Source: Hyphomicrobiales bacterium (GTDB taxonomy: Bacteria; Pseudomonadota; Alphaproteobacteria; Rhizobiales; Beijerinckiaceae). From it: a stretch of DNA of 64,000 nt. The first letter of the stretch is position 1; each line of letters starts with the position of its first letter. Below, in pieces: positions 37,822 through 49,905 of the stretch. The notes under the pieces are model-generated. The model was not told the origin of the DNA, did not search any database, and worked only from the letters and a program-made list of their open reading frames with translations. The translations under genes and the position numbers were made by a program. The stretch is taken from positions 1 through 64,000 of the forward strand of contig JAGWTA010000002.1 of the NCBI GenBank assembly GCA_028869185.1, written 5' to 3'.

Positions 37822-38952
37822 TCAGGCGGTCTGCGGCCGTGTGGCGCGCGCCGGCGCGCCGCCGCGCTGCTGACGCTGGATCAGCCAGGCGCCAACGCCG
37901 ATCTCGAGCAGAACCAGCGCGCCGACCAGCAGCGCGAACAGTGGATTGAGCCGGATCAGCGTTTCGGCCGCAATCAGAATCCCGACATGGGCGGCCGGCA
38001 ACACCGCGATCACCGCGCTGGAGGCCGATGAGCGCCTGCCCGTCGCGCTCGCCACGGTCAGCACCAGACCCGCGCCAAGCAGCGTATGCGCCAGCGCCAG
38101 CAGCGGCACGGCGAACCGTTTGGCCGCCTCAGACCACCATTCGGCATAGATGCGCTTTTCCGTCGCCGCGAGTTTTCGAAATCCCATGAACTCGCCGAGC
38201 GGCATTTCGAAAACGCCCTTCCAGGCGCGCTGCGGCAACCCCTCTGCGCCCTGCATGGGCAGCGAAATGGCGTATTCGTCGAAATTGGTGACGCGCACCC
38301 GCCCATCGTCCGGCCGGCTCTGGATCTGGCCGCGCGAGAGGATCAGAACGACGCTCGCCGCATTGCGCCGGAATTCGGCCGTCGCTGCGGTAATCGTCTG
38401 CTCGGTTTTCTTTTCTGCGTCATACTGGCGGATGAAAACATTTTCCGCGATGTCGGGCGTCGCCCAGCGCTCGAAATAGATCGTGCGCTGCTCGTCCTCG
38501 AATGTGTAGAAAACGCCGGGCTCCAGCATGCGGTGATTGAGCGAATGGCGAATGACGTTCAGCACGTCATGCATGCGCCCCGACGTTTCTGGCGCGATCC
38601 AGCAGGACAGCAGATAACCGAGCGCCGTCGCCGCCGCAGCGACGATCAAGGCGGGCCGCACGATGGCCCAGGTGGACAGACGCAGCGAATAGAGCACGGC
38701 GATCATGCCGTCCGCGGACATGCGCGCAAACTCCAGCGCGGCCGCAACGCCGACCGCCATCGGCAAGGCGATATAGGTGACCGTCGGCAATGTGCCGACG
38801 AGCGCGGGCCACAACAGCCCGCCGCGCAGCGCCGCCGGCGGCAACTGGTGAAACAGCGCTGAGAGCAGCACCGGAATCGTCAATGCGATCTGCACGACCA
38901 GCGCGCCGATCAGCACACGCTTTCCCAGATACAGCGACAGCAAACGGGGCAT
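37822..38952 (-). CDS. LptF/LptG-family (YjgP/YjgQ) membrane permease, unpaired
   Basis: A 376-residue protein with the YjgP/YjgQ plan: membrane helices at the N-terminus (residues ~15-120, with PTVTYIALPMAVGVAAALEF), a long periplasmic beta-rich domain (~130-280, with TFEDEQRTIYFERWATPDI) and three C-terminal helices. Classical LptF and LptG are encoded as a pair beside lptD; this copy stands alone beside a glycosyltransferase gene. It may therefore be a paralogue for another envelope glycolipid. It could also be the only copy of one half with its partner elsewhere. Confidence 0.8.
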   Translation of the reverse strand: MPRLLSLYLGKRVLIGALVVQIALTIPVLLSALFHQLPPAALRGGLLWPALVGTLPTVTYIALPMAVGVAAALEFARMSADGMIAVLYSLRLSTWAIVRPALIVAAAATALGYLLSCWIAPETSGRMHDVLNVIRHSLNHRMLEPGVFYTFEDEQRTIYFERWATPDIAENVFIRQYDAEKKTEQTITAATAEFRRNAASVVLILSRGQIQSRPDDGRVRVTNFDEYAISLPMQGAEGLPQRAWKGVFEMPLGEFMGFRKLAATEKRIYAEWWSEAAKRFAVPLLALAHTLLGAGLVLTVASATGRRSSASSAVIAVLPAAHVGILIAAETLIRLNPLFALLVGALVLLEIGVGAWLIQRQQRGGAPARATRPQTA

Positions 38953-38956
38953 TGCG

Positions 38957-39811
38957 CTAGCGCCTGACTTTCGCCCATGCAGCCTGCGAAAAATCCCGCC
39001 AGGCGTCGTCGAACGCGAGCTTGCCCGGCAGGCTCTGCAGGCCGGCCCAATGGCAGAAATAGATTTCCTTGCCGGCCGAATCCAGCGGCATGCCGTCCTT
39101 GAAGGTTACGCCCTTGGCCTTGTAGAACGTCTCGTGCGAGGCGTTCGGAACGAGATCGGACATCAGCGCGATCTTGAGATGGTTGCGGTGCACGGTGAAA
39201 TTCACCACCGGCTGCGCAAACAGCATGCCGCGCTTGCGCACCTTGTGAAACAGCTTGGCGTCGCGTTCCATCGTCTCGACGAACATCTGCGGATTGAGCA
39301 GCTTGTTCGACGTCAGGAAATATCCGTCGTTGAACAGCATCGCATCCTTGAGATCGGGAACTTCGTCCTTCTTTTTGTTGTAAACATATTCAAACGACGG
39401 CGAAGCGATGAGAAATTCGCTCTCGCCCTTTTTCAGATGGCCGAACATCGGCGCAAAATCGCGGAACAGCACGACATCGACATCGATGTAGACGACCTCG
39501 TCGAGCGGCAGGGCGAGCGACTGCAACTTGCGCAGTCGCCGGCGATATCCTGGAAACAGCGGGTAGAGATCGGCGGCCAGCCGGTCGATCTCCGGCGAGA
39601 CGCTTTCGACCATCGTCACGCCATAGGCGTCCGCAGCCCGCCGCGTGATCGTCAGGCCATCGTCGTAAGGGATCAGGTAGAGCGGGATATGCGCGTTCGT
39701 GCGCTTCCAGCTTTCCAGAAAGGGCAGCAGCCAGTCGGCGATCTTGTCGTTGGCGACGATCGCCATGCCGCGCCGGGGAGCGCCGCCTTCGGGGTCCGCT
39801 GGATTCGCCAA
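38957..39811 (-). CDS. Putative GT-A fold glycosyltransferase
   Basis: A 284-residue cytoplasmic protein with a nucleotide-sugar-binding start (MAIVANDKIADWLLPFLESW) and a metal-binding DxD-like core in EVVYIDVDVVLFRDFAP. A run LFNDGYFLTSNKLLNPQMF is also typical of nucleotide-diphospho-sugar transferases. Donor and acceptor cannot be told. The annotated start is a TTG with an aaggtg site; an ATG 15 codons later is possible. It follows the promoterward side of the LptF/G-like gene by only four bases, so the two probably form an operon. Confidence 0.7.
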   Translation of the reverse strand: MANPADPEGGAPRRGMAIVANDKIADWLLPFLESWKRTNAHIPLYLIPYDDGLTITRRAADAYGVTMVESVSPEIDRLAADLYPLFPGYRRRLRKLQSLALPLDEVVYIDVDVVLFRDFAPMFGHLKKGESEFLIASPSFEYVYNKKKDEVPDLKDAMLFNDGYFLTSNKLLNPQMFVETMERDAKLFHKVRKRGMLFAQPVVNFTVHRNHLKIALMSDLVPNASHETFYKAKGVTFKDGMPLDSAGKEIYFCHWAGLQSLPGKLAFDDAWRDFSQAAWAKVRR

Positions 39812-39927
39812 GATTTACACCTTATGAGAAGGGCGGGCGCGGCCCGCCGGATGGGCGCCTTCCTCTCACGAACCGGGCGGGCAAGACAAGCGCTGCAAAC
39901 GTCGCGGCGCAGGAGCGGACCGGACGT

Positions 39928-41193
39928 TTGACGCAATCCCCGAACACATTGCCGCCCGAAAGCGGTCCGCTTGCCGGCCGCACTGTCGCCGTCGTCCACG
40001 CCGCCTGGCATTCCTGCGGTTCGTATCAGGTGAATGTGGCGCAGGCGCAGGCCTATCGCGCGATGGGCGCCCATGTGATCTCGCTCGCCCTGCGCGAATG
40101 GCCCCCCGGCGCCCTCGACGAGCAAGCCCCGCATTGGCGCGACTACATCGCCAAGACGCAGGACATGCCGGCCCATGAGCGCTTCTATTCGAACATGCCG
40201 CGAGGCGCCTTTGCCGACCCGCGCTTCTGGGCCAAGGTCTACTGGCCGCTGATCCACGGCGATCACGCGCGCGCAACGGCGGCGATGACCGCGCTCGCGC
40301 CGATCCCGCCCGGCCTTGCCGGCCGCAGGATCGACCTCATCCACTGCAATCATTTTTTCTGCATGCCCGCCGCGCGCAATCTGTCGGCCGATGCGCCGCT
40401 GATCGTCGAGACGCAGGACATTCAGGCCAACCAGTATGATTTGCGCAACAAGGGCGCCTTCGTCGCCCCGCCCCGCGCCACCTATGCGCAGATGCTGGAT
40501 TACGAACTGGACACGCTGCGCAAGGCCGATCTGCTCGTCCATCTCAATGCGGAAGAATGCGCGCAATTCGAGCAGCTCCTGCCGGAGAAGCGGCATGCGC
40601 TCGTCTATCCGGCAGCGCCCGCCGCGCCGACCGGGCCAGGCGGACGCGACATCGTAATCGTTGCAAGCGGCAATCATCCCAATACGCTTGGCGTCGAATG
40701 GTTCCTGCAGGAAGTGGCGCCGCTGGCGCGCGGCGTCGACGTCAAGATAGCGGGCAATGTCGACGCGGCGCTGAAACAGCGCAATCCGCAGCTTTATGCG
40801 CGCTGCGCCGGCATGTTTCTCGGCCGCGTTGCAGACATCGGCGCCGTTTACGCCAACGCCGGCCTCGTATTGTTGCCGACGACCGAAGGCCACGGTCTTT
40901 CGATCAAGGCGGTGGAGGCGCTCTCCAGCGGCGCGCCGCTGATTGCGACATCGCAGGCCTTTCGCGGCATGAACATGCCCATCGCCGCCATCGGCAATCT
41001 TTTGGTCGCGGACGATCCCGCGACATTCGCCGCCGCCCTGCGCGCCGCCGCCTTGCAGATCGGCGAGGATCCGCGCGCGCTCGGGCCCGCGCGCGCCGTC
41101 AGCGATACGCGACGCTATTACGAGGACCATTTCAGCGCCGCCGCCTATCGGCGCGCCCTGCAGGCGCTCGCCGTTCCCATGGCGCGCGCATGA
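39928..41193 (+). CDS. GT4-like glycosyltransferase, first of tandem pair
   Basis: A 421-residue GT-B fold enzyme. The N-terminal half opens with VAVVHAAWHSCGSYQVNVAQ; the C-terminal half carries LPTTEGHGLSIKAVEALSSG, the nucleotide-binding end of the Rossmann domain. At the first position of the usual E-x7-E motif there is His instead of Glu, as in the G(x)GLxxKxxE subfamily. It begins at a TTG preceded by aggag. Its paralogue follows at once (ATGA overlap) with the same plan. The substrate is unknown. Confidence 0.78.
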   Translation: MTQSPNTLPPESGPLAGRTVAVVHAAWHSCGSYQVNVAQAQAYRAMGAHVISLALREWPPGALDEQAPHWRDYIAKTQDMPAHERFYSNMPRGAFADPRFWAKVYWPLIHGDHARATAAMTALAPIPPGLAGRRIDLIHCNHFFCMPAARNLSADAPLIVETQDIQANQYDLRNKGAFVAPPRATYAQMLDYELDTLRKADLLVHLNAEECAQFEQLLPEKRHALVYPAAPAAPTGPGGRDIVIVASGNHPNTLGVEWFLQEVAPLARGVDVKIAGNVDAALKQRNPQLYARCAGMFLGRVADIGAVYANAGLVLLPTTEGHGLSIKAVEALSSGAPLIATSQAFRGMNMPIAAIGNLLVADDPATFAAALRAAALQIGEDPRALGPARAVSDTRRYYEDHFSAAAYRRALQALAVPMARA

Positions 41194-42404
41194 CCGCATT
41201 TGCAAACCGCGCCGTCGCCATCGTGCATCCCGCCTGGCATTCCTGCGGCACCTATCAGGTCGTGCTCGGCCAGGTCGCGGCATGGAAAAGTCTCGGCGCG
41301 CGCGTGACGACGATCGCCGTTTCGGACGAGCCCGGCCGCAAGCCGGAGCGCGCCTGGATCTGGAAAAACTACCGCGCCCATACGCCCGAACTCGACGCGA
41401 CTGAGCGCGCGTTCGCAGGCCCGCCGTTGCATGCGGTCATCAAGCCGCATGTTCTGCGCAACGCCGTCTGGCCCTACGCGCATGGCGATCAGGCCGCGAT
41501 CCGCGCGGGCCTCGCGAGCGAGGCGGAAATTTCGCCGCTCGCGCTGAACGGCGCCTATGACATCGTCCATTGCAACCACTTCTTCACGATGCCGGTGGCG
41601 CTTCGGCTTGCGCGCGGCGCGCCGATCCTGCTCGACAGCCACGATTTGCAGGCGCGCCAGTTTCACCTGACCGCGGAAGGAAAATTCCGTCTGTCGCCGC
41701 GCGCCAGCTATGAATCCATGCTGGCGCAGGAACTGGGCTGGATGCGCAAGGCGGACGTGCTGCTGCATCTCAACGCCGAGGAAAACGAGGCCTTTTGCGC
41801 GCTGCTGCCCGAAAAACGCCACGCATTGCTCTATCCGGCTGTGCCGCCGGTCCCGACCGGCCCGGGCGGCCAGGAAATCGTTCTCGTTTCCAGCTGGAAT
41901 CGCGCCAATGTCGAAAGCGCGCTGTGGTTCCTGCGCGATGTCGTCCCGCTCGCGCCCGGGATCGCCGTGAAAATCTACGGGTCCGTTGGCGATGGCGTGC
42001 GCGCCGCGGATGCTGCGCTCCACGAAAAATATCGCGCCTGGTTCATGGGCCGCGTCGATCATATCGGCGATATTTACGCCAACGCGCGTCTTGCGCTGTT
42101 GCCAACCACCAGCGGCACGGGCCTGTCGATCAAAAGCGTCGAGGCCATGGCGAGCGGCCTGCCGCTTGTCGCCACGAGCCATGCGCTGCGCGGCATGAAC
42201 ATCGATCCCACCAGTCTCGACAATGTCGCACTGGCTGACGATGCCGAGGGATTTGCAGCGGCGTTGCGCATGCTCGCCGCGCGTCCGGCGCCGGACGAGG
42301 CGCAACGCATCAGCAGCGCCACGCGGCGCGCCTATGACGCCCATTTCAGCGAAGCGGCCTATCGGGCCAAACTGTCGGCGATTGCGGCGCCGCTGTTGCG
42401 GTGA
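41190..42404 (+). CDS. GT4-like glycosyltransferase, second of tandem pair
   Basis: A 404-residue paralogue of the preceding gene with the same landmarks in order: VAIVHPAWHSCGTYQVVLGQ, the central IVHCNHFFTMPVALRLARGA, LLPEKRHALLYPAVPPVPTG and the C-terminal LLPTTSGTGLSIKSVEAMAS. Here the first Glu position is Thr. The two proteins clearly arose by gene duplication yet differ at many other sites, consistent with successive sugar additions. The stop faces the ABC exporter genes on the other strand. Confidence 0.78.
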   Translation: MTAFANRAVAIVHPAWHSCGTYQVVLGQVAAWKSLGARVTTIAVSDEPGRKPERAWIWKNYRAHTPELDATERAFAGPPLHAVIKPHVLRNAVWPYAHGDQAAIRAGLASEAEISPLALNGAYDIVHCNHFFTMPVALRLARGAPILLDSHDLQARQFHLTAEGKFRLSPRASYESMLAQELGWMRKADVLLHLNAEENEAFCALLPEKRHALLYPAVPPVPTGPGGQEIVLVSSWNRANVESALWFLRDVVPLAPGIAVKIYGSVGDGVRAADAALHEKYRAWFMGRVDHIGDIYANARLALLPTTSGTGLSIKSVEAMASGLPLVATSHALRGMNIDPTSLDNVALADDAEGFAAALRMLAARPAPDEAQRISSATRRAYDAHFSEAAYRAKLSAIAAPLLR

Positions 42405-42591
42405 GCGCCTTCGCGGAGCCCGAGAAGGCTCTGCGCTGGAGCGGTTTACGATAAGGCGGAAGCGCGCCGCCATCCACCCGATTGGCGCGTACGATGCAGA
42501 CGGGCCGTCTCATTGAGGCTCATTGATTGCACGGGCGCACAGTCAGCCCGGTCGTTGCTGCGACGGCGATTCAAACCGAAAATGAACCGCT

Positions 42592-43362
42592 CTAGCCGCC
42601 GACTGTCGCGGCCGCCTCGTCTTCCTCGTCCTTGCGCACCGTGGCGACGTAAGCGGGAATGACATCGTTCGGCGGGCCGATTTCGCGCACCGCGCCGGCG
42701 TCGATCCAGATCACGCGATCGCACAGATCCTTCAGGTAATCGAGCCCGTGCGAGACGACCAAAATCGTGCCGCGCTTGGCGAACTCGTCGATGAAATCCT
42801 CGCACTTTTTCGCAAATGCCTCGTCGCCAACCGAAAGCGCCTCGTCGACGATCAGAATATCGGCGTCGGCGTTGGCGCAGACGGCGAAGGCAAGCCGCGC
42901 GATCATGCCGCTGGAGTAAAGCTTCATCGGTTGATCGAAAAACATGCCGATTTCGGCAAATGCCTCGATCGCTGGCATCTTCGCCAGCGTCTCGTTGCGC
43001 TTGAGGCCGAGAATGGCGGCGGCGATCATCGCGTTCTCGCGTCCCGACAATGTTCCGTCGAAGCCGGAGCCCAGCGCAAGGATCGGCGCGACGCGCCCGT
43101 TCACCGCAATCGAGCCCTTCGTCGGCCGGGTGATGCCGCACAGCAATTGCAACAGCGTCGTCTTGCCCGCGCCGTTGCGCCCGATGATGCCGACGCATTC
43201 GCCCTTCTTGACCTCGAAGGTGACGTCCTTGAGCACCCAATGCTGCTTGTAGAAAGTCTTGATCCAGCCGAACAGCGCCTGCATCAACTGATCGTTGCGG
43301 CGCATGTAGAGCTGGAAGGCCTTGCCGACATGGCTGACGACGATCGCATTCTCAGATGACAT
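42592..43362 (-). CDS. Polysaccharide-type ABC exporter ATPase (Wzt/KpsT/NodI-like)
   Basis: A 256-residue ATPase. Walker A is GIIGRNGAGKTTLLQL, the signature is LYSSGMIARLAFAV and Walker B is ADILIVDEALSVGDEAFAKK. It has the extra N-terminal segment typical of exporters of polysaccharides and O-antigens, but ends soon after the ATPase core, so it lacks the C-terminal glycan-binding domain of full Wzt proteins. Its start overlaps the permease gene by 11 bases. It should power export of the product made by the neighbouring glycosyltransferases. Confidence 0.9.
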   Translation of the reverse strand: MSSENAIVVSHVGKAFQLYMRRNDQLMQALFGWIKTFYKQHWVLKDVTFEVKKGECVGIIGRNGAGKTTLLQLLCGITRPTKGSIAVNGRVAPILALGSGFDGTLSGRENAMIAAAILGLKRNETLAKMPAIEAFAEIGMFFDQPMKLYSSGMIARLAFAVCANADADILIVDEALSVGDEAFAKKCEDFIDEFAKRGTILVVSHGLDYLKDLCDRVIWIDAGAVREIGPPNDVIPAYVATVRKDEEDEAAATVGG

Positions 43363-44149
43363 CGACGATCACCGATTTGTATTCGTTATAGAACCGGTAT
43401 CCGAGCAGAAACACAGCATAGGAAACGACGAAACACGCCAGATACATCGGCAAGCTCGGCAGCTTTCCGTTGATGACGAGATCGCGCATCATCGCGATGA
43501 AATCGCCGACGAGATTGAGCTTGGCCCAGGGTTGCAGATTCGCCGGCAGCTGCTCGATGGTGAAAAACACCGGCGTGCCGAACATCATCAGCGGCACGAC
43601 GGCGACCATCAGGTAGGACACGTCCTTGGTGAAGGCGCCGAGCGCCATCAGGAACCATGTCATGCCGAGCAGGAACAGCGTGAAGGGAATGAGCACCAGC
43701 GGCGCCAGCAGGATCGTCCACTGCAGGTAATGGACGGTGACCAGCCGCACGACAATCAGGGTGCCGAAACTGATCGCGGCGTAAATGAGGGCGCGCGCGA
43801 CCGATGTCCAGGCGATCGTCTCGCCGGGAAAGATCGAACGCTTGATGAAATAGACATGCTCGTGCAGCAGCGTCGGCGCGCGCGCCGCCAGTTCCGCGAA
43901 AGTGTTGAACAGGATCAGGCCGACGAAGCTGGCGGCGGCGTAATCGACCGTGCTTTGTCCTTGCGCGACCATGGGGGCCGCGACCGAAAAAATGGTCGTA
44001 TAGGCGAGCAGCATCGCCAGCGGCGCGAAAATCGCCCAAACCCAGCCCAGCATTGTGTCGCGGAACCGGGAGATGAACTCGCGGCGGACCACCGCCCGGA
44101 TCAGTTCGCGGTGATGCCAGGCCCTCTCGAAGGGCTCGGTCAGGATCAT
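43352..44149 (-). CDS. Polysaccharide-type ABC exporter permease (Wzm/KpsM-like, ABC-2)
   Basis: A 265-residue inner-membrane protein of the ABC-2 group with about six helices, an N-terminal amphipathic start (FERAWHHRELIRAVVRREFI), and the segments LGWVWAIFAPLAMLLAYTTI and GTPVFFTIEQLPANLQPWAK known from Wzm/KpsM/TagG. It is encoded before the ATPase and overlaps it, so both subunits are made together. A promoter is predicted about 90 bases upstream on the minus strand, in the gap shared with the ACP operon. Confidence 0.9.
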   Translation of the reverse strand: MILTEPFERAWHHRELIRAVVRREFISRFRDTMLGWVWAIFAPLAMLLAYTTIFSVAAPMVAQGQSTVDYAAASFVGLILFNTFAELAARAPTLLHEHVYFIKRSIFPGETIAWTSVARALIYAAISFGTLIVVRLVTVHYLQWTILLAPLVLIPFTLFLLGMTWFLMALGAFTKDVSYLMVAVVPLMMFGTPVFFTIEQLPANLQPWAKLNLVGDFIAMMRDLVINGKLPSLPMYLACFVVSYAVFLLGYRFYNEYKSVIVDVI

Positions 44150-44378: not shown

Positions 44379-44654
44379 GTGACGCCCGATATTTCCGACA
44401 GGAACAAGCTGGTCGATGAGATCATCGACGTCATCTGCAAAGAAGGCATGGTCGACCGCGAGAAGGTGAAGCCGGACGCGACGATCGAGAGTCTTGATCT
44501 GAAATCAATTGATATCGTTATGATTTTGACGGCTATCGAAGAGAAGTTCGACGTCTATATCCCGATGGACGGCTCCTTTCAGGACGCCAAGACCGTGCAG
44601 GACCTGATCGACGCCCTCGCCGACCGCATCCAGAAAGAGAAAAACAAGGCATGA
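44379..44654 (+). CDS. Specialised acyl carrier protein
   Basis: A 91-residue acidic four-helix carrier. The phosphopantetheine site is Ser43 in ESLDLKSIDIVMIL, where the usual DSL is KSI; helix III includes EEKFDVYIPMDGSF. It differs from housekeeping AcpP and from the very-long-chain AcpXL I know. The GTG start lies behind aggcagg, and the stop overlaps the ketosynthase start (ATGA). As first gene of a seven-gene operon it should carry the growing chain for the enzymes downstream. Confidence 0.88.
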   Translation: MTPDISDRNKLVDEIIDVICKEGMVDREKVKPDATIESLDLKSIDIVMILTAIEEKFDVYIPMDGSFQDAKTVQDLIDALADRIQKEKNKA

Positions 44655-45859
44655 CGCGCCGTGTTGTCGTCACCGGCATGGGGGCCGTTTCGGCCGCCGG
44701 CCTCGGCGCAACGCGCCTGTGGGAAGCCGCCCGCGACGGCAAAAGCTGCATCGGCCAGCTTAATTTTGCGCGCCCCTACATGGGCCGCATCAAGATCGGC
44801 GCGCAGGTGCCCGATTTCGATCCAGCCGCCCATCTCGACCGCCAGACGCTGATGTATTGCGACGCTTTCTCGCAATATGCGCTGGTGGCGGCCGATGAAG
44901 CGACAGCGCAGGCCGGCCTCTCGAAGGAAACGCTCGGCGGCCCGCGTTGCGCAACGATTCTGGGCACCGGCATCGGCGGCATTCGCACCGTCGACGACGG
45001 GTTGGAAAAGCTCTACGCGCACGGCCAAAAGCCCGAAATCCTGTCGATTCCCAAGCTGATCGCCAGCGCGGGCCCCTCGCTTCTGTCGATGCGCTTCAAC
45101 AGCCAAGGTCCCTGTTTCGCGGTAGCCTCGGCCTGCTCGTCGGCCAGTCAGGCCATTGGCATGGGCATGCAGATGATCCGCTCCGGCATGGTGGATCGCG
45201 CCATCGTCGGCGGTTCTGAAGCCAGTCTGTCGGTTGGCACGCAATTGACCTGGGAAATGCTGCGCGTTCTGACGCCCGACGCCATCCGCCCCTTTTCCAA
45301 GGGCCGCACCGGCATGGCGATTGGCGACGGCGCCGCGATTTTCGTTCTCGAGACGGAAGAAGCGGCCAGCAAGCGCGGCGCAGCGCCCCTGTGCGAACTG
45401 GCCGGCTACGGAACCTCGGCGGACGCCTTCGATCCGATCCGCCCGCATGCCGATGGCGCAACGCTGGCGATGAAGCTGGCGCTGGACGACGCCGGCATGA
45501 GCCCGGACGAAATCGGCTACGTCAACGCCCATGGCACTGCCACGGCGTTGAACGACCCGACCGAAGCCGAGGCGATGGGCCGCATTTTCGGCGAGCGCCT
45601 CGCCAGAGTGCCCGTTTCTTCGACCAAGCCGATCCACGGCCACGGGCTGGGCGCGGCCGGGGCTCTGGAGCTTGTGTGCGCCATCAACGCCCTGCGCGCG
45701 CAATTTGCGCCCCCGACGATCAATTTTCTCGAGCCGGACCCCAAATGCCCGGTCGATTGCGTGCCCAATGTCGGCCGCCCGGCGCCAATGCGCGCGGTCC
45801 TCTCCAATTCCTTCGCCTTTGGCGGCATCAACGCCTCTCTGGCGCTGCGGGCGCTCTGA
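44651..45859 (+). CDS. Beta-ketoacyl-ACP synthase (FabF/NodE-like)
   Basis: A 402-residue condensing enzyme with all catalytic residues: Cys162 in VASACSSASQAIG, His294 in VNAHGTATALND, and Lys326/His331 in STKPIHGHGLGAAGALE. It elongates acyl chains on an ACP. Sequence layout and length resemble FabF and the nodulation enzyme NodE, which also pairs with a dedicated ACP (NodF). A full reduction cycle would need a ketoreductase and dehydratase, both present downstream. No enoyl reductase is encoded here, so unsaturated or housekeeping-reduced products are possible. Confidence 0.92.
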   Translation: MTRRVVVTGMGAVSAAGLGATRLWEAARDGKSCIGQLNFARPYMGRIKIGAQVPDFDPAAHLDRQTLMYCDAFSQYALVAADEATAQAGLSKETLGGPRCATILGTGIGGIRTVDDGLEKLYAHGQKPEILSIPKLIASAGPSLLSMRFNSQGPCFAVASACSSASQAIGMGMQMIRSGMVDRAIVGGSEASLSVGTQLTWEMLRVLTPDAIRPFSKGRTGMAIGDGAAIFVLETEEAASKRGAAPLCELAGYGTSADAFDPIRPHADGATLAMKLALDDAGMSPDEIGYVNAHGTATALNDPTEAEAMGRIFGERLARVPVSSTKPIHGHGLGAAGALELVCAINALRAQFAPPTINFLEPDPKCPVDCVPNVGRPAPMRAVLSNSFAFGGINASLALRAL

Positions 45860-45864
45860 GGCCG

Positions 45865-46224
45865 ATGGCGCGGATCGGCCCCTTCGCGGTCGTCTGCGAC
45901 CCCGCCAGCGTCGTCGCTTACGCCAGGGCGACCGGCTACGAGGGCGAAGGCGCGCCGGCGGCCTGGCCCACCGTCTGGCTGACGACCGGCGAATTGGGCG
46001 CAGCCCTGCGGGCGCTGGTTCCGCCCGGCAAGGCTCTGGTGCACGAGAGCCAGAGTTTCGTCTACGCCGCGCCCCTGACGGTCGGCGCCTGCTATAAAAT
46101 CGCCGCAACTGTGGCGCAGGAGACAGGCCCGGACCGGCTCGTGGTCGAAGCTGACGCAACGGCGCCGGAGGGCGGCCAGACGCTTGCCATGCGCGCGGTC
46201 CTGCGTATTGTTGCGCCGCAATAA
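45865..46224 (+). CDS. Small hotdog-fold protein without catalytic motif
   Basis: A 119-residue protein, starting MARIGPFAVVCDPASVVAYA and with a hotdog pattern of one long helix followed by beta strands (AAPLTVGACYKIAATVAQE, QTLAMRAVLRIV). It resembles the non-catalytic half of two-domain MaoC hydratases and is followed ten bases later by a catalytic MaoC gene. The two may form a heterodimeric dehydratase, as in some mycobacterial and haloarchaeal pairs; this is inference. The start ATG lies five bases after the ketosynthase stop. Confidence 0.65.
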   Translation: MARIGPFAVVCDPASVVAYARATGYEGEGAPAAWPTVWLTTGELGAALRALVPPGKALVHESQSFVYAAPLTVGACYKIAATVAQETGPDRLVVEADATAPEGGQTLAMRAVLRIVAPQ

Positions 46225-46233
46225 AGGCTGAAG

Positions 46234-46626
46234 ATGTCGTTGCCCCGGCAAGGTGAAAAAACCCCGGCTTTCGCCGTTGGTCCGTTCGGGCCGGACGATG
46301 CGCGCTGTTACGCTGCGGCGTCGGGCGACGACAATCCGTTGCATGTCGATGCAGCGCTCGCATCGGCCATCGGTTTCGCAGCGCCGCCCGTGCACGGCAT
46401 GCGCCTTATGGCGGCGGTCGAGCCCGCGTTGAAACAATGGCGACCCGACCTTCGCCTCACGCGCCTGTCGGGAACCTTCGCCGAACCCCTGCTGCTGGGC
46501 GAGGCCGCAACCCTCTCGGCCCGCGTGCTGAAAGCCGGCGAAAGGGACGTCTTGCTGCGCGTGATGGTGCAAGGCCCCCGTCGCGGCCCCTCGCTCGTCG
46601 CAGAAGCGGTGCTGGAGGCTGCATGA
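46234..46626 (+). CDS. MaoC-family dehydratase (R-specific enoyl hydratase)
   Basis: A 130-residue hotdog enzyme. The hydratase motif is intact: YAAASGDDNPLHVDAALASA, with Asp32 and His37 as the expected catalytic pair, and then FAAPPVHGMRLM. It would dehydrate the 3-hydroxyacyl intermediate on the carrier protein or hydrate an enoyl group. Its stop overlaps the SDR start (ATGA). Together with the preceding small hotdog protein it may make a two-subunit enzyme. Confidence 0.85.
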   Translation: MSLPRQGEKTPAFAVGPFGPDDARCYAAASGDDNPLHVDAALASAIGFAAPPVHGMRLMAAVEPALKQWRPDLRLTRLSGTFAEPLLLGEAATLSARVLKAGERDVLLRVMVQGPRRGPSLVAEAVLEAA

Positions 46627-47420
46627 CAGAGAGCTTCCGCCATGCCGTTATCACCGGCGCCTCGTCCGGCATTGGCCGCGCCGTTGCGATGGCATACGCC
46701 GCCCCGCTCATGCGCCTGACCTTGATTGGCCGCGACAGCCGCCGTCTCGAGGAAGCCGCCGCCGCCTGCAAGGCAAAGGGCGCGGAGGTCGAGACCGCCG
46801 CGCTCGATGTGCGCGACCGCGCCGCCATGCGCGACTTTCTCGTCGCGCTCGATCGGCGCGCGCCGGTCGACCTGCTGATCGCCAACGCCGGCATTTCGAC
46901 CGGCCTGCCCGCCGGCGCCCTGACCGAGGATCCCGACGCCGTGCGTGGCATCGTGGCGATCAATCTTCTGGGCGCGCTCAACACGGTCGAGCCGTTGATC
47001 GCGCCCATGTGCGCGCGCGGCAGGGGCCGCATCGCGCTCACGGGGTCGATTTCGGCCCTGCGCGGCCTGCCCCACTGCCCCGCTTATTGCGCGACCAAGG
47101 CGGCGGTCCACCTTTACGCCGAAAGCCTGCGCGGCCAGCTCGCACGCCATGGCGTCGGCGTGAGCCTGATCGTGCCGGGCTTCGTCCATACGCCGCTCAA
47201 CGCCGATCTCGTTTCGCCCAAGCCGCTGGCGATGGACGATTCGAAGGCTGCGCGGATCATCCGGCGCGGCCTCGACAGGGGAAAAGCCACCATCGCATTC
47301 CCGCGCCTCTTGTATTGGGGCGCGCGGCTCCTCACTGTCCTACCCGTTCGTCTGGTGGACTTTTTCATGGTTCGGCAGCATGTGGATGTGCCGGTAACGA
47401 AGGAAAGGGAGCTGGCGTGA
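46623..47420 (+). CDS. SDR-family NAD(P)-dependent ketoreductase
   Basis: A 265-residue short-chain dehydrogenase. The cofactor motif is TGASSGIGRAVAMAYA (residues ~10-25), the NAG motif is in LLIANAGISTG, and the active-site Ser and Tyr-x3-Lys lie in LTGSISALRG and AYCATKAAVHLYAE. The C-terminal part is hydrophobic (LLTVLPVRLVDFFMV) and could touch the membrane. It likely reduces the 3-keto group made by the ketosynthase. It overlaps both neighbours by four bases. Confidence 0.9.
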   Translation: MTESFRHAVITGASSGIGRAVAMAYAAPLMRLTLIGRDSRRLEEAAAACKAKGAEVETAALDVRDRAAMRDFLVALDRRAPVDLLIANAGISTGLPAGALTEDPDAVRGIVAINLLGALNTVEPLIAPMCARGRGRIALTGSISALRGLPHCPAYCATKAAVHLYAESLRGQLARHGVGVSLIVPGFVHTPLNADLVSPKPLAMDDSKAARIIRRGLDRGKATIAFPRLLYWGARLLTVLPVRLVDFFMVRQHVDVPVTKERELA

Positions 47421-48610
47421 CCGACCCGCTGTTCCTCGCCCGGCTCGCCGCTGGCGTTTTCGCCGCAGCCTCGCTCGCCTTTCTGGCCCTCACGGTGCTG
47501 CTCGGCATGCTCGCGCCCTTCCTCATGGCGCGCCGGCCGCAACGACGCGACAAGCCGCCGGTCACCATGGTGATCCCGATCAAGCAGCTGGACGAAAGCT
47601 TCGTGCCCTCGCAGGAATCGGCCTTCGATCAGGATTATCCCGATTACGATGTGACCATCACGGCGGTGGAGACGGAATCGCCGGCCATTGCGGCCTCTCG
47701 CCGCATTCTGGCGGCCCATCCCGAACACGCCGCGCGCATCGTGCGCGCCACAGCTTCCTTCGCCGCCAGCCCCAAGGTCAACAATCTCTATCAAGCGGTC
47801 GAAGACGCGCGCGCCGATCTCATCGTGATGAAGGATTCCAACATCCTGCTCACCAACAACGGCATGACGGAAGCTGTCGCCGCGATGACCGACGATGTCG
47901 GCCTCGTCGTCGCCGTGCCGGAAGCCCATGGCGCCAAAAACTTCGCAGCGGAAGTGGAATGCTCGATCATGAACCAGTCGCACGGCCGCATTCTGCTGGC
48001 CGCCGCCGCGCTGGGTCTCGGCTTCGGCGTCGGCAAGCTGATGGTTTTCCGGCGCTCTGCGCTGCATAAGGCCGGCGGTTTCGAGGCCATCGCCCATTCG
48101 GTGGGCGAGGATTCGGCCATGGCGCATGCGCTGGAGGCGACGGGCCTGCGCACCCGATTCATGCGCGCGCCGATCCTGCAATTGCTGGGCGCGCGCAATT
48201 TCCACGATGTGTTCCACCGTCAGCTGCGCTGGACGGTCGTGCGCCGCCACAACGAGACGTTCGCCTTCCTGCTCGAGCCGCTCGGCCTCGTCTCGTGCTG
48301 CGCGCTGGCGGCCGGTTTCGCCGCCCCGCTTGTTGGCCTCGAGCCGTTGGCCGGGGCTGCCGCCGCAGTCGTCGTGTGGTGGGCGCTGGAGACGCTGCTT
48401 GCGCTCGCCCGGGGCTGGGATGTATCGGTCACTGCGCCCGCCGCCATGGTGACGCGCGACGCCATGATGCTGGGCGTGTGGCTGCGCGCATGGTTCACCA
48501 AAAACGTCGTCTGGGCGTCGGAAAAATATCAGGCGCACCAGCCCGACAGGCTTGTCGAGAACGAACCGATGGCGGCAGCGGTCGAAACAATAAAAAGGAA
48601 CGACCGGTGA
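47417..48610 (+). CDS. Membrane glycosyltransferase family 2/21 (ceramide-glucosyltransferase-like)
   Basis: A 397-residue enzyme with an N-terminal membrane helix (residues ~8-35) and two more near the C-terminus. The cytoplasmic GT-A domain has VTMVIPIKQLDESF, the DSN variant of the metal motif in DLIVMKDSNILLTNNG, the GEDSAMAHALE acid, and the QLRW motif in FHRQLRWTVVRRHN. This layout is that of GT21 ceramide glucosyltransferases and HpnI-like enzymes, which glycosylate lipid acceptors. The start is GTG, coupled to the SDR gene. Lipid-acceptor use is inferred. Confidence 0.85.
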   Translation: MTDPLFLARLAAGVFAAASLAFLALTVLLGMLAPFLMARRPQRRDKPPVTMVIPIKQLDESFVPSQESAFDQDYPDYDVTITAVETESPAIAASRRILAAHPEHAARIVRATASFAASPKVNNLYQAVEDARADLIVMKDSNILLTNNGMTEAVAAMTDDVGLVVAVPEAHGAKNFAAEVECSIMNQSHGRILLAAAALGLGFGVGKLMVFRRSALHKAGGFEAIAHSVGEDSAMAHALEATGLRTRFMRAPILQLLGARNFHDVFHRQLRWTVVRRHNETFAFLLEPLGLVSCCALAAGFAAPLVGLEPLAGAAAAVVVWWALETLLALARGWDVSVTAPAAMVTRDAMMLGVWLRAWFTKNVVWASEKYQAHQPDRLVENEPMAAAVETIKRNDR

Positions 48611-49905
48611 ATTTGATTTTGGGGCTGATCGATTTCGCCCTGACGATCTGCGTGATCGGCATGGCGCTGATCGGCGCGGGTTTTCTCATTCTGATCGCGC
48701 GTTTCATCTGGGACGAAATGCGCGGCGTGGGCGATAGCGCCCGCGCGACGCCCCCGCTCGCCGAAGCCGATCTGCCGCATGTCGTCTTGCAGATTCCCGT
48801 TTTTAACGAACCGAAAGTCGTCGACGGCGCGCTGCGCTCTGCCGCGCTGATCGACTGGCCGAAAGACAAGCTGCGCATCCAGCTCCTGGACGATTCGACC
48901 GACGAGACGACCGACCGCGCGGCCGAAACGATTGCGGCGTTGCGCGCGCAGGGCGTCGACGCGCAGCATGTGCGGCGCGAGGATCGCTCGGGCTTCAAGG
49001 CCGGCGCCTGCGCGGCGGGCCTGAAACTGTGCGACGCGCCTTTCGTCGCCATGCTGGACGCCGATTTCCGCCCGCCTGCCGACTGGCTGCGCAAGGCCAT
49101 CCCCGTCATCGTCGCCGACCCCAAGGCGAGCTTCGTGCAGACGCGCTGCGAATTCGCCAATTACGAAACCAACTGGCTGACGCGCGTGCAGGGCCTCGTG
49201 CTCGACGGGCACTTTCTGATCGAGCAGCGCACGCGCGCCAATCTGCGCTGGATATTCCAGTTCAACGGCACGGGCGGCATATGGCGTCGCGCCGCCATCG
49301 ACTCGGTCGGCGGCTGGCTCGATTATTCGCTGACCGAAGACCTCGATCTCACAATCCGCACCTATCTGGCGGGCTGGCACGGCCGCTTCATTTCCAATCC
49401 GGTGATCCCTGGCCAGATGCCCGACAACGTTCGCGACTGGCGCCGCCAGCAGCGCCGCTGGTCGAACGGCTTCATCCAGGTTGCGCAGCGCACGCTTAAG
49501 CCGCTGTGGAACGCCTCCTGGCCGTTGACCGAGCGCCTTTCGGCCATCGTGCTCGTGCTGCATCAGGTGTTCTTCCCGCTTTGCGCGATCGCTTTCGTGC
49601 TGATGCTGCTCGGCGTGATCGTGCGGCTCGCGGCCGGCCTGTCGGCGGGCGCCTATCTGCCGCTGCTCGGCCTGATTGCGCTGATGGCGACAGCCGTCGT
49701 CGTCGGCATGACTCTGCCGCCTTACATAGCGCTCAAGCGCGGGCCGCTCTGGCGCTATTTCGCCACCATGGCGATTGTGCCGCCGATGTTCATCTATCTC
49801 GCCTTCGCCAACGCGCCGAAAATCATCCAGACCGCGCGCGGCAGAAAGACTGTGTTCAAGCGCACGCCCAAGGAAGAACAGGCGGCCAAGGAACAGGCCT
49901 GGTGA
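48607..49905 (+). CDS. Processive-type GT2 membrane glycosyltransferase (CesA/NodC-like)
   Basis: A 432-residue enzyme with one N-terminal membrane helix (residues ~5-32), a GT-A domain and about four C-terminal helices. The D,D,D,QxxRW set is complete: LLDDSTDETTD, MLDADFRPPADW, LTEDLDLTIRTYLAG and DWRRQQRRWSNGFIQ. Enzymes of this plan polymerise or transfer beta-linked sugars and may thread the product through the membrane. It is coupled to the GT21-like gene through a GTGA overlap and ends the operon. It is convergent with the PPK2 gene. Confidence 0.88.
   Translation: MNLILGLIDFALTICVIGMALIGAGFLILIARFIWDEMRGVGDSARATPPLAEADLPHVVLQIPVFNEPKVVDGALRSAALIDWPKDKLRIQLLDDSTDETTDRAAETIAALRAQGVDAQHVRREDRSGFKAGACAAGLKLCDAPFVAMLDADFRPPADWLRKAIPVIVADPKASFVQTRCEFANYETNWLTRVQGLVLDGHFLIEQRTRANLRWIFQFNGTGGIWRRAAIDSVGGWLDYSLTEDLDLTIRTYLAGWHGRFISNPVIPGQMPDNVRDWRRQQRRWSNGFIQVAQRTLKPLWNASWPLTERLSAIVLVLHQVFFPLCAIAFVLMLLGVIVRLAAGLSAGAYLPLLGLIALMATAVVVGMTLPPYIALKRGPLWRYFATMAIVPPMFIYLAFANAPKIIQTARGRKTVFKRTPKEEQAAKEQAW

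Follow-up and report, generated by a model that had tools for sequence, protein, structure and literature searches.

A seven-gene operon on the plus strand (44379–49905) of a 64,000-nucleotide stretch of bacterial DNA appears to encode half of a two-locus pathway for glycosphingolipids (glycosylated ceramides), equipped with its own type II acyl-building module. Based on sequence comparison, we give this reading a probability of about 0.78. Ceramides are sphingolipids of the kind present in human membranes. The stretch, referred to here as the window, comprises positions 1–64,000 of contig JAGWTA010000002.1 in assembly GCA_028869185.1 (~96% complete), from a Hyphomicrobiales bacterium placed in the Beijerinckiaceae by GTDB. 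The seven intact open reading frames encode, in order, an acyl carrier protein (ACP), a ketosynthase (KS), two hotdog proteins (hotdog 1 and hotdog 2), a short-chain dehydrogenase/reductase (SDR), and two glycosyltransferases of families GT21 and GT2. Neighbouring frames overlap by 4 bases at four junctions and are separated by 5 and 9 bases at the remaining two. A preliminary description of this DNA had read the genes as a one-strand operon, and all frames were confirmed with their catalytic motifs in place. The Pfam families matched were PP-binding, ketoacyl-synt (N and C), FAS1_DH_region (marginal), MaoC, adh_short, Glyco_transf_21, and Glyco_trans_2_3. None of the seven proteins reached an NCBIfam equivalog cut-off, and so no named pathway claims them.

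Co-inheritance with serine palmitoyltransferase and glycosylation genes

We searched 99 genomes of the family for KS orthologs and read ~20 kb around each one. All seven genes stand in the same order at ten loci in addition to the window (L038–L041, L044, L045, L047, L049, L050, L056), a count that leaves out L042 and L043, which hold the KS only. The GT21 gene is not at the locus in six cases (L051, L053, L054, L057, L061, L064), and neither GT21 nor the SDR is at the locus in two (L052, L055). The set is split over several loci in three genomes (G003, G045, G035). The operon order also occurs in Labrys okinawensis (Xanthobacteraceae), where it reads CerS-ACP-KS-HD-HD-SDR-GT21-GT2-GT2 (CerS, ceramide synthase; HD, hotdog), in a Methylocystaceae metagenome-assembled genome (MAG), and in a USC-alpha Beijerinckiaceae MAG. 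A profile scan of contigs with the GT2 alignment recovered operon genes only at L122–L124, L127, and L128; most matches were unrelated GT2s, and those in Reyranella were GT2 genes without the operon. Full or partial copies in the same order across many genera demonstrate that the arrangement is not due to chance. The preliminary description had viewed scattering in relatives as a threat to its reading; gene order is instead kept in many genomes, and split sets are still retained within the genome.

The other half of the proposed pathway lies on a different contig of the window genome (C1; L102:14114–18173), which encodes a serine palmitoyltransferase (SPT)-like enzyme, a ceramide-synthase-like N-acyltransferase, a desaturase, and a PF04116 fatty-acid hydroxylase. 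At eight loci of relatives (L038, L039, L052, L054, L055, L057, L061, L064), convergent genes downstream of the operon encode a desaturase and a ~380-aa protein with no Pfam match, followed, where the locus extends far enough, by an AONS-family pyridoxal phosphate (PLP) enzyme. The trio of SPT, N-acyltransferase, and desaturase adjoins a window-type operon in L039, L052, L054, L055, L057, L061, L064, and L127. In a relative, the desaturase contains Lipid_DES, a domain of sphingolipid Delta4-desaturases. Over 355 residues, the ~380-aa protein shares 33% identity (E 2e-61) with YghO, which is the N-acyltransferase in the ceramide cluster of E. coli BL21 (PMC9386255). When modelled, a copy from the same genus (pLDDT, a per-residue confidence score, of 75) proved similar to tandem GNAT N-acyltransferases.

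In a tree built from 56 PLP enzymes, SgaB not among them, the close SPTs clustered with SPTs encoded beside fully reducing type I polyketide synthases (PKSs) of 2,475–2,497 aa (support 100/99); E. coli BioF and KBL, as well as AcpR-type SPTs, fell outside this group. The other paralogs of the window genome fell on long branches and their exact placement is unsure. The PLP enzyme is a predicted SPT of the proposed ceramide pathway. SPT-like enzymes beside fully reducing type I PKSs were seen in several alphaproteobacterial families (L118, L121, L208–L213; the PKS sizes above are those of L118 and L121), and several of these loci have an SDR nearby, resembling the Pseudomonas fluorescens sga cluster. 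In contrast to its Beijerinckiaceae counterparts, the PLP enzyme near the Labrys okinawensis operon (L128:13779–15014) is placed, on a long branch, with the AcpR-type SPTs.

Presence across the 99 genomes was called at E < 1e-160 for close SPTs, E < 1e-140 for GT2, E < 1e-76 for GT21, E < 1e-40 for the SDR, and at least 58% identity for KS orthologs. These thresholds were picked after viewing the score lists and were set on score gaps (542 vs. 435 bits for SPT and 260 vs. 202 bits for GT21; for GT2, there was no further match down to E 1e-70). Close SPT, GT2, and GT21 orthologs were found in an identical set of 22 genomes representing 9 of 43 genera (Fisher 2e-22), and SPT, N-acyltransferase, and desaturase were present at these loci in all 22. 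KS orthologs were found in the same 22 genomes plus two more, G033 and G071.

The two glycosyltransferases connect the operon to a lipid acceptor. Both contain catalytic D residues and a (Q/R)xxRW motif. The GT21 protein (47417–48610, +) matched PF13506 with 156.7 bits against a cut-off of 21.7, and its best Protein Data Bank (PDB) relative was a ceramide glucosyltransferase (E 8e-34, residues 45–372). It is a probable ceramide glycosyltransferase, and the membrane GT2 (48607–49905, +; PF13632; CelA/MftF-like), which co-occurs with SPT, is probably a second one. Because GT21 matches the solved ceramide glucosyltransferase, we place its sugar first and that of GT2 after it. The resemblance to ceramide glucosyltransferase (UGCG) covers the GT21 family, the D residues, the (Q/R)xxRW motif, and the E-value; the window protein differs in being bacterial and encoded with acyl-building genes, and its donor and acceptor are predictions. 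In Caulobacter, Sgt1 and Sgt2 also glycosylate ceramide in succession, as is predicted here, but are described as GT4 enzymes (PMC6445935), in contrast to GT21 and GT2. Among the 22 carrier genomes, GT21 is at these loci exactly where the fatty-acid hydroxylase is, and the remaining genomes keep GT21 elsewhere.

The best NCBIfam match of the GT21 protein was HpnI, which raises the idea that the operon modifies hopanoids (bacteriohopanetetrol glucosamine). We regard this as very improbable: the score was 154.5 bits against a cut-off of 310, and the best PDB relative acts on ceramide. The HpnI assignment was rejected on the presence of a separate HpnI-like paralog (30–35%) in the window genome (G000:C26), which many other genomes share, among them ones that lack the operon. 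The preliminary description had proposed a dedicated ACP-bound acyl chain and a glycosylated lipid product, and the co-inherited operon supports both. It stopped at a glycolipid; GT21 and GT2 share their 22 genomes with SPT, and the lipid is very probably ceramide.

Several observations weigh against placing the operon in a ceramide pathway. The SPT set of the window genome is on a contig other than that of the operon. The PLP enzyme of a relative scored nearer to BioF than to the SPT models and fell below every curated cut-off. The window ACP is not beside SPT, and its resemblance to AcpR is weak (~29–30% identity to three AcpRs, E 7e-6 to 3e-4). The Fisher values (~1e-22) are inflated by shared descent of the genomes. 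Finally, G033 and G071 (L059 and L063) keep ACP-KS-hotdog loci with no SDR, glycosyltransferases, or close SPT. From this pattern it follows that the SDR and glycosyltransferases accompany SPT, whereas the ACP-KS-hotdog genes can stand alone, and the acyl module of these two genomes seems either to serve a different purpose or to be a remnant. An epimerase-type reductase gene follows the ACP-KS-hotdog genes in L059. The co-occurrence still stands despite kinship, on the grounds that genomes in which the set is dispersed over several loci still retain it.

The acyl-building module and the SDR

The ACP (44379–44654, +; PF00550) carries a phosphopantetheine attachment site at Ser43, and its orthologs, 64–86% identical, are the first gene of the operon across the family genomes. 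The FabF-like KS follows (44651–45859, +; PF00109/PF02801), and the intact Cys-His-His triad reported earlier was located at Cys162/His294/His331. Its score is under the FabF equivalog cut-off, and it is 35% identical to a FabF-like KS in the same genome. A second KS, 62–64% identical to the one in the operon, occurs in operon-bearing genomes (L042, L043, L046, L048) with no other operon genes nearby.

The presence of two hotdog proteins was correctly noted in the preliminary description, but not that the pair looks like one enzyme. Hotdog 1 (45865–46224, +) is HadA-like and lacks the catalytic Asp/His motif. Its sequence signal is marginal (FAS1_DH_region just below the Pfam cut-off), but its AlphaFold model has a pLDDT of 94.6, and the top PDB matches of the model were nearly all mycobacterial HadAB and HadBC dehydratase chains, with Mycobacterium tuberculosis HadA chains first. 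Hotdog 2 (46234–46626, +; PF01575) is a MaoC/HadB-like dehydratase subunit with the catalytic motif GDDNPLH (D32/H37), and mycobacterial HadB was among its best matches in a profile search. Based on the model, hotdog 1 is the probable non-catalytic partner of hotdog 2, and the two look like a single heterodimeric (3R)-hydroxyacyl-ACP dehydratase, a predicted dimer of one HadA-like and one HadB-like subunit. As in HadAB of mycobacterial type II fatty-acid synthase (FAS), the non-catalytic and catalytic subunits are adjacent, and a single longer hotdog protein replaces both in some operon relatives (L065–L067). The difference is that the operon pair stands in a ceramide-locus context, where both dimer and substrate are predicted. 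Mycobacterial HadAB-type dehydratases act on long chains.

The SDR (46623–47420, +; adh_short) has the motifs TGASSGIG and S-Y-K and a hydrophobic C-terminus. The preliminary description took it to be the ketoreductase of a small fatty-acid elongation set, which now seems unlikely: the SDR goes with SPT rather than with the KS. Of the 34 genomes with an SPT match of any kind, 31 had a match to the SDR; of the 65 others, none did. The SDR gene directly follows SPT in L066, with a shared boundary, adjoins it in L208, L212, and L214, and is within a few kb of it in L209–L211 and L219; several of these loci have a type I PKS upstream. The window SDR is 40–48% identical to SDRs near PKS-SPT loci, and in a tree, most SPT-neighbour SDRs grouped with it (support 89/97), the L214 SDR falling outside on a long branch. 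Since it is found only with SPT and often near it, we read the SDR as probably a 3-ketosphinganine (or 3-oxoceramide) reductase and not a fatty-acid ketoreductase. The SDR of the P. fluorescens sga cluster has been proposed as a 3-ketosphinganine reductase (PMC12134224).

An operon making a glycolipid outside the sphingolipids would have the SDR as the ketoreductase of a small FAS, release the chain onto a sugar or glycerol lipid, and owe its link with SPT to shared ancestry. The KS, hotdog, and SDR genes fit the needs of such a system, and G033 and G071 do keep the ACP-KS-hotdog genes without SPT. We consider this improbable nonetheless, as the SDR is absent together with the close SPT in L059 and L063 while the KS and hotdogs stay, the SDR stands beside SPT in loci without such a KS module, and GT21 and GT2 track SPT exactly. 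A polyketide or aryl polyene (APE) type product is scarcely credible. ACP, KS, dehydratase, and reductase genes are common to clusters of that kind, but the operon contains no ammonia-lyase, AMP ligase, acyltransferase, MMPL, or LolA genes by Pfam, its dehydratases are HadAB-like, and its genes track SPT. The aryl polyene reading was rejected on operon gene content. The preliminary description could not match the set to the APE, AcpXL, or Nod pathways, and it is indeed none of these.

Comparison with known ceramide pathways and use of the acyl chain

In Caulobacter crescentus, Sphingomonas, and E. coli BL21, ceramide is made by AasR, CerR, AcpR, and SPT together with CerS (PMC9386255, PMC11324152). 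The SPTs of characterised Proteobacteria need or prefer an acyl chain on a dedicated ACP, and proteobacterial SPT genes have been reported to co-occur with AasR (PMC9386255). Using AasR and CerR queries from a Caulobacter-type locus (L227, containing CerS, hydroxylase, LptF/G-like genes, SPT, AcpR, CerR, and AasR), we found orthologs of neither in the 22 carrier genomes. For CerR, there was no match at E ≤ 1e-10 in the window genome, and the others gave at most 59 bits vs. 176–193 bits for true orthologs. For AasR, there was no match at E ≤ 1e-40 in the window genome, and the others gave best hits of 28–36% identity or none vs. 46–53% for true orthologs. At ~96% completeness, absence from the window genome alone would be no proof, but the other 21 genomes agree on both genes. 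Membership in the AasR/AcpR/CerR pathway was ruled out by these missing orthologs. Both systems have an SPT-like PLP enzyme, a CerS-type N-acyltransferase, a dedicated ACP, and a reductase. The SPT here is of another clade, a KS and HadAB-like dehydratase stand in place of the acyl-ACP synthetase, and a classical SDR in place of the NDUFA9-like CerR.

Sphingolipids of P. fluorescens MYb115 are instead PKS-derived, made by the PKS SgaA, the SPT SgaB, and the KDSR SgaC (PMC12134224). Here too, a chain builder is paired with SPT and a 3-ketosphinganine-reductase-type SDR, and the SPT groups with PKS-neighbour SPTs. The chain builder of the operon consists of discrete type II proteins rather than an iterative type I PKS, and CerS, a desaturase, a hydroxylase, and two glycosyltransferases are added. 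No type I PKS was seen in the ~96% complete window genome, where all seven KS-domain hits lie in frames of 406–448 aa, and supply by such an enzyme was rejected there on this basis.

In the proposed route, whose enzyme activities, chain acceptor, sugars, and final lipid are predicted, the KS would condense malonyl carried by the dedicated ACP with a housekeeping acyl-ACP, dehydration of the hydroxyacyl-ACP would fall to the HadA/HadB-like pair, and housekeeping FAS would supply the ketoreductase and enoyl reductase. Loading of the ACP by condensation could make AasR unnecessary. The special acyl-ACP would then be used in ceramide assembly by SPT or ceramide synthase, the SDR would reduce 3-ketosphinganine or 3-oxoceramide, the desaturase and hydroxylase would tailor the ceramide, and GT21 would attach the first sugar and GT2 a further one. 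The preliminary description left chain release to outside enzymes; this is explained by SPT and ceramide synthase, both encoded elsewhere in the genome, either of which can consume acyl-ACP.

Gene neighbourhood does not decide between SPT and CerS as the acceptor of the chain. We favour SPT, which would build the chain into the long-chain base, because of the characterised precedent and the PKS-SPT loci, and we hold this at even odds. The same pathway could alternatively use the ACP/KS/HadAB-like module to build the N-acyl chain for ceramide synthase, with SPT taking an ordinary acyl-ACP or acyl-CoA. This is a real possibility, if short of even odds. The cerS gene lies directly upstream of ACP in L066, L067, and L128; in L066, SPT-SDR is divergent from CerS-ACP-KS-hotdog at one locus, so that SPT is coupled to the SDR, and L067 retains CerS-ACP-KS-HD with no SPT at that locus. 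The established long-chain role of HadAB-type dehydratases in mycobacteria would also fit an N-acyl chain. Against it, the N-acyltransferase gene is placed with SPT and not with ACP in most family genomes, related SPTs stand beside chain-building type I PKSs, and SPT needs a dedicated acyl-ACP in characterised Proteobacteria (PMC9386255). If SPT is the acceptor, a variant can be envisaged in which the KS, a housekeeping ketoreductase, and the HadAB-like pair give a trans-2-enoyl-ACP that SPT condenses with serine; the double bond would become C4=C5, yielding sphing-4-enine-type bases without a desaturase or enoyl reductase. The desaturase gene in 22 of 22 genomes argues against this variant, which we think unlikely.

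Each enzyme family, bacterial sphingolipid synthesis, and the feeding of SPT by a PKS are already known. In the openly licensed literature, we found no description of a type II module with a HadAB-like dehydratase in a ceramide locus. Literature searches returned nothing on ceramide with Methylocystis or on bacterial GT21 glucosylceramide, and for Beijerinckiaceae with sphingolipid only papers that were unrelated, judged by title. If the glycosphingolipid reading is correct, a dedicated type II acyl module would be a third way to feed bacterial ceramide synthesis, beside AasR/AcpR and type I PKS. The rule of SPT-AasR co-occurrence in Proteobacteria (PMC9386255) would fail here. A Beijerinckiaceae/Methylocystaceae-related group, including the USC-alpha genome, and Labrys would be predicted glycosylceramide makers. 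The pathway would also be unusually eukaryote-like, combining a 3-ketosphinganine reductase, a Delta4-type desaturase, a hydroxylase, and GT21. It is debated whether reduction of the base precedes or follows N-acylation in bacteria (PMC11087976); the presence of a KDSR-like SDR instead of CerR suggests that reduction comes first.

Flanking genes and a candidate exporter

Divergent from the operon, the window encodes an LptF/LptG-like protein, two probable GT4 glycosyltransferases, an ABC ATPase, and an ABC-2 permease (37822–44149). This LptF/G-GT4 block appears inverted relative to same-genus genomes. The window genome has two LptF/G-family genes in all, each on a separate contig, and the one in the window is a candidate dedicated sphingolipid exporter. 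An LptF/LptG-like pair is next to SPT in the ceramide clusters of the Caulobacter-type locus (L227:3981–6406), where it was assigned by resemblance and position, and of E. coli BL21 (L234:6921–9067), where it is annotated.

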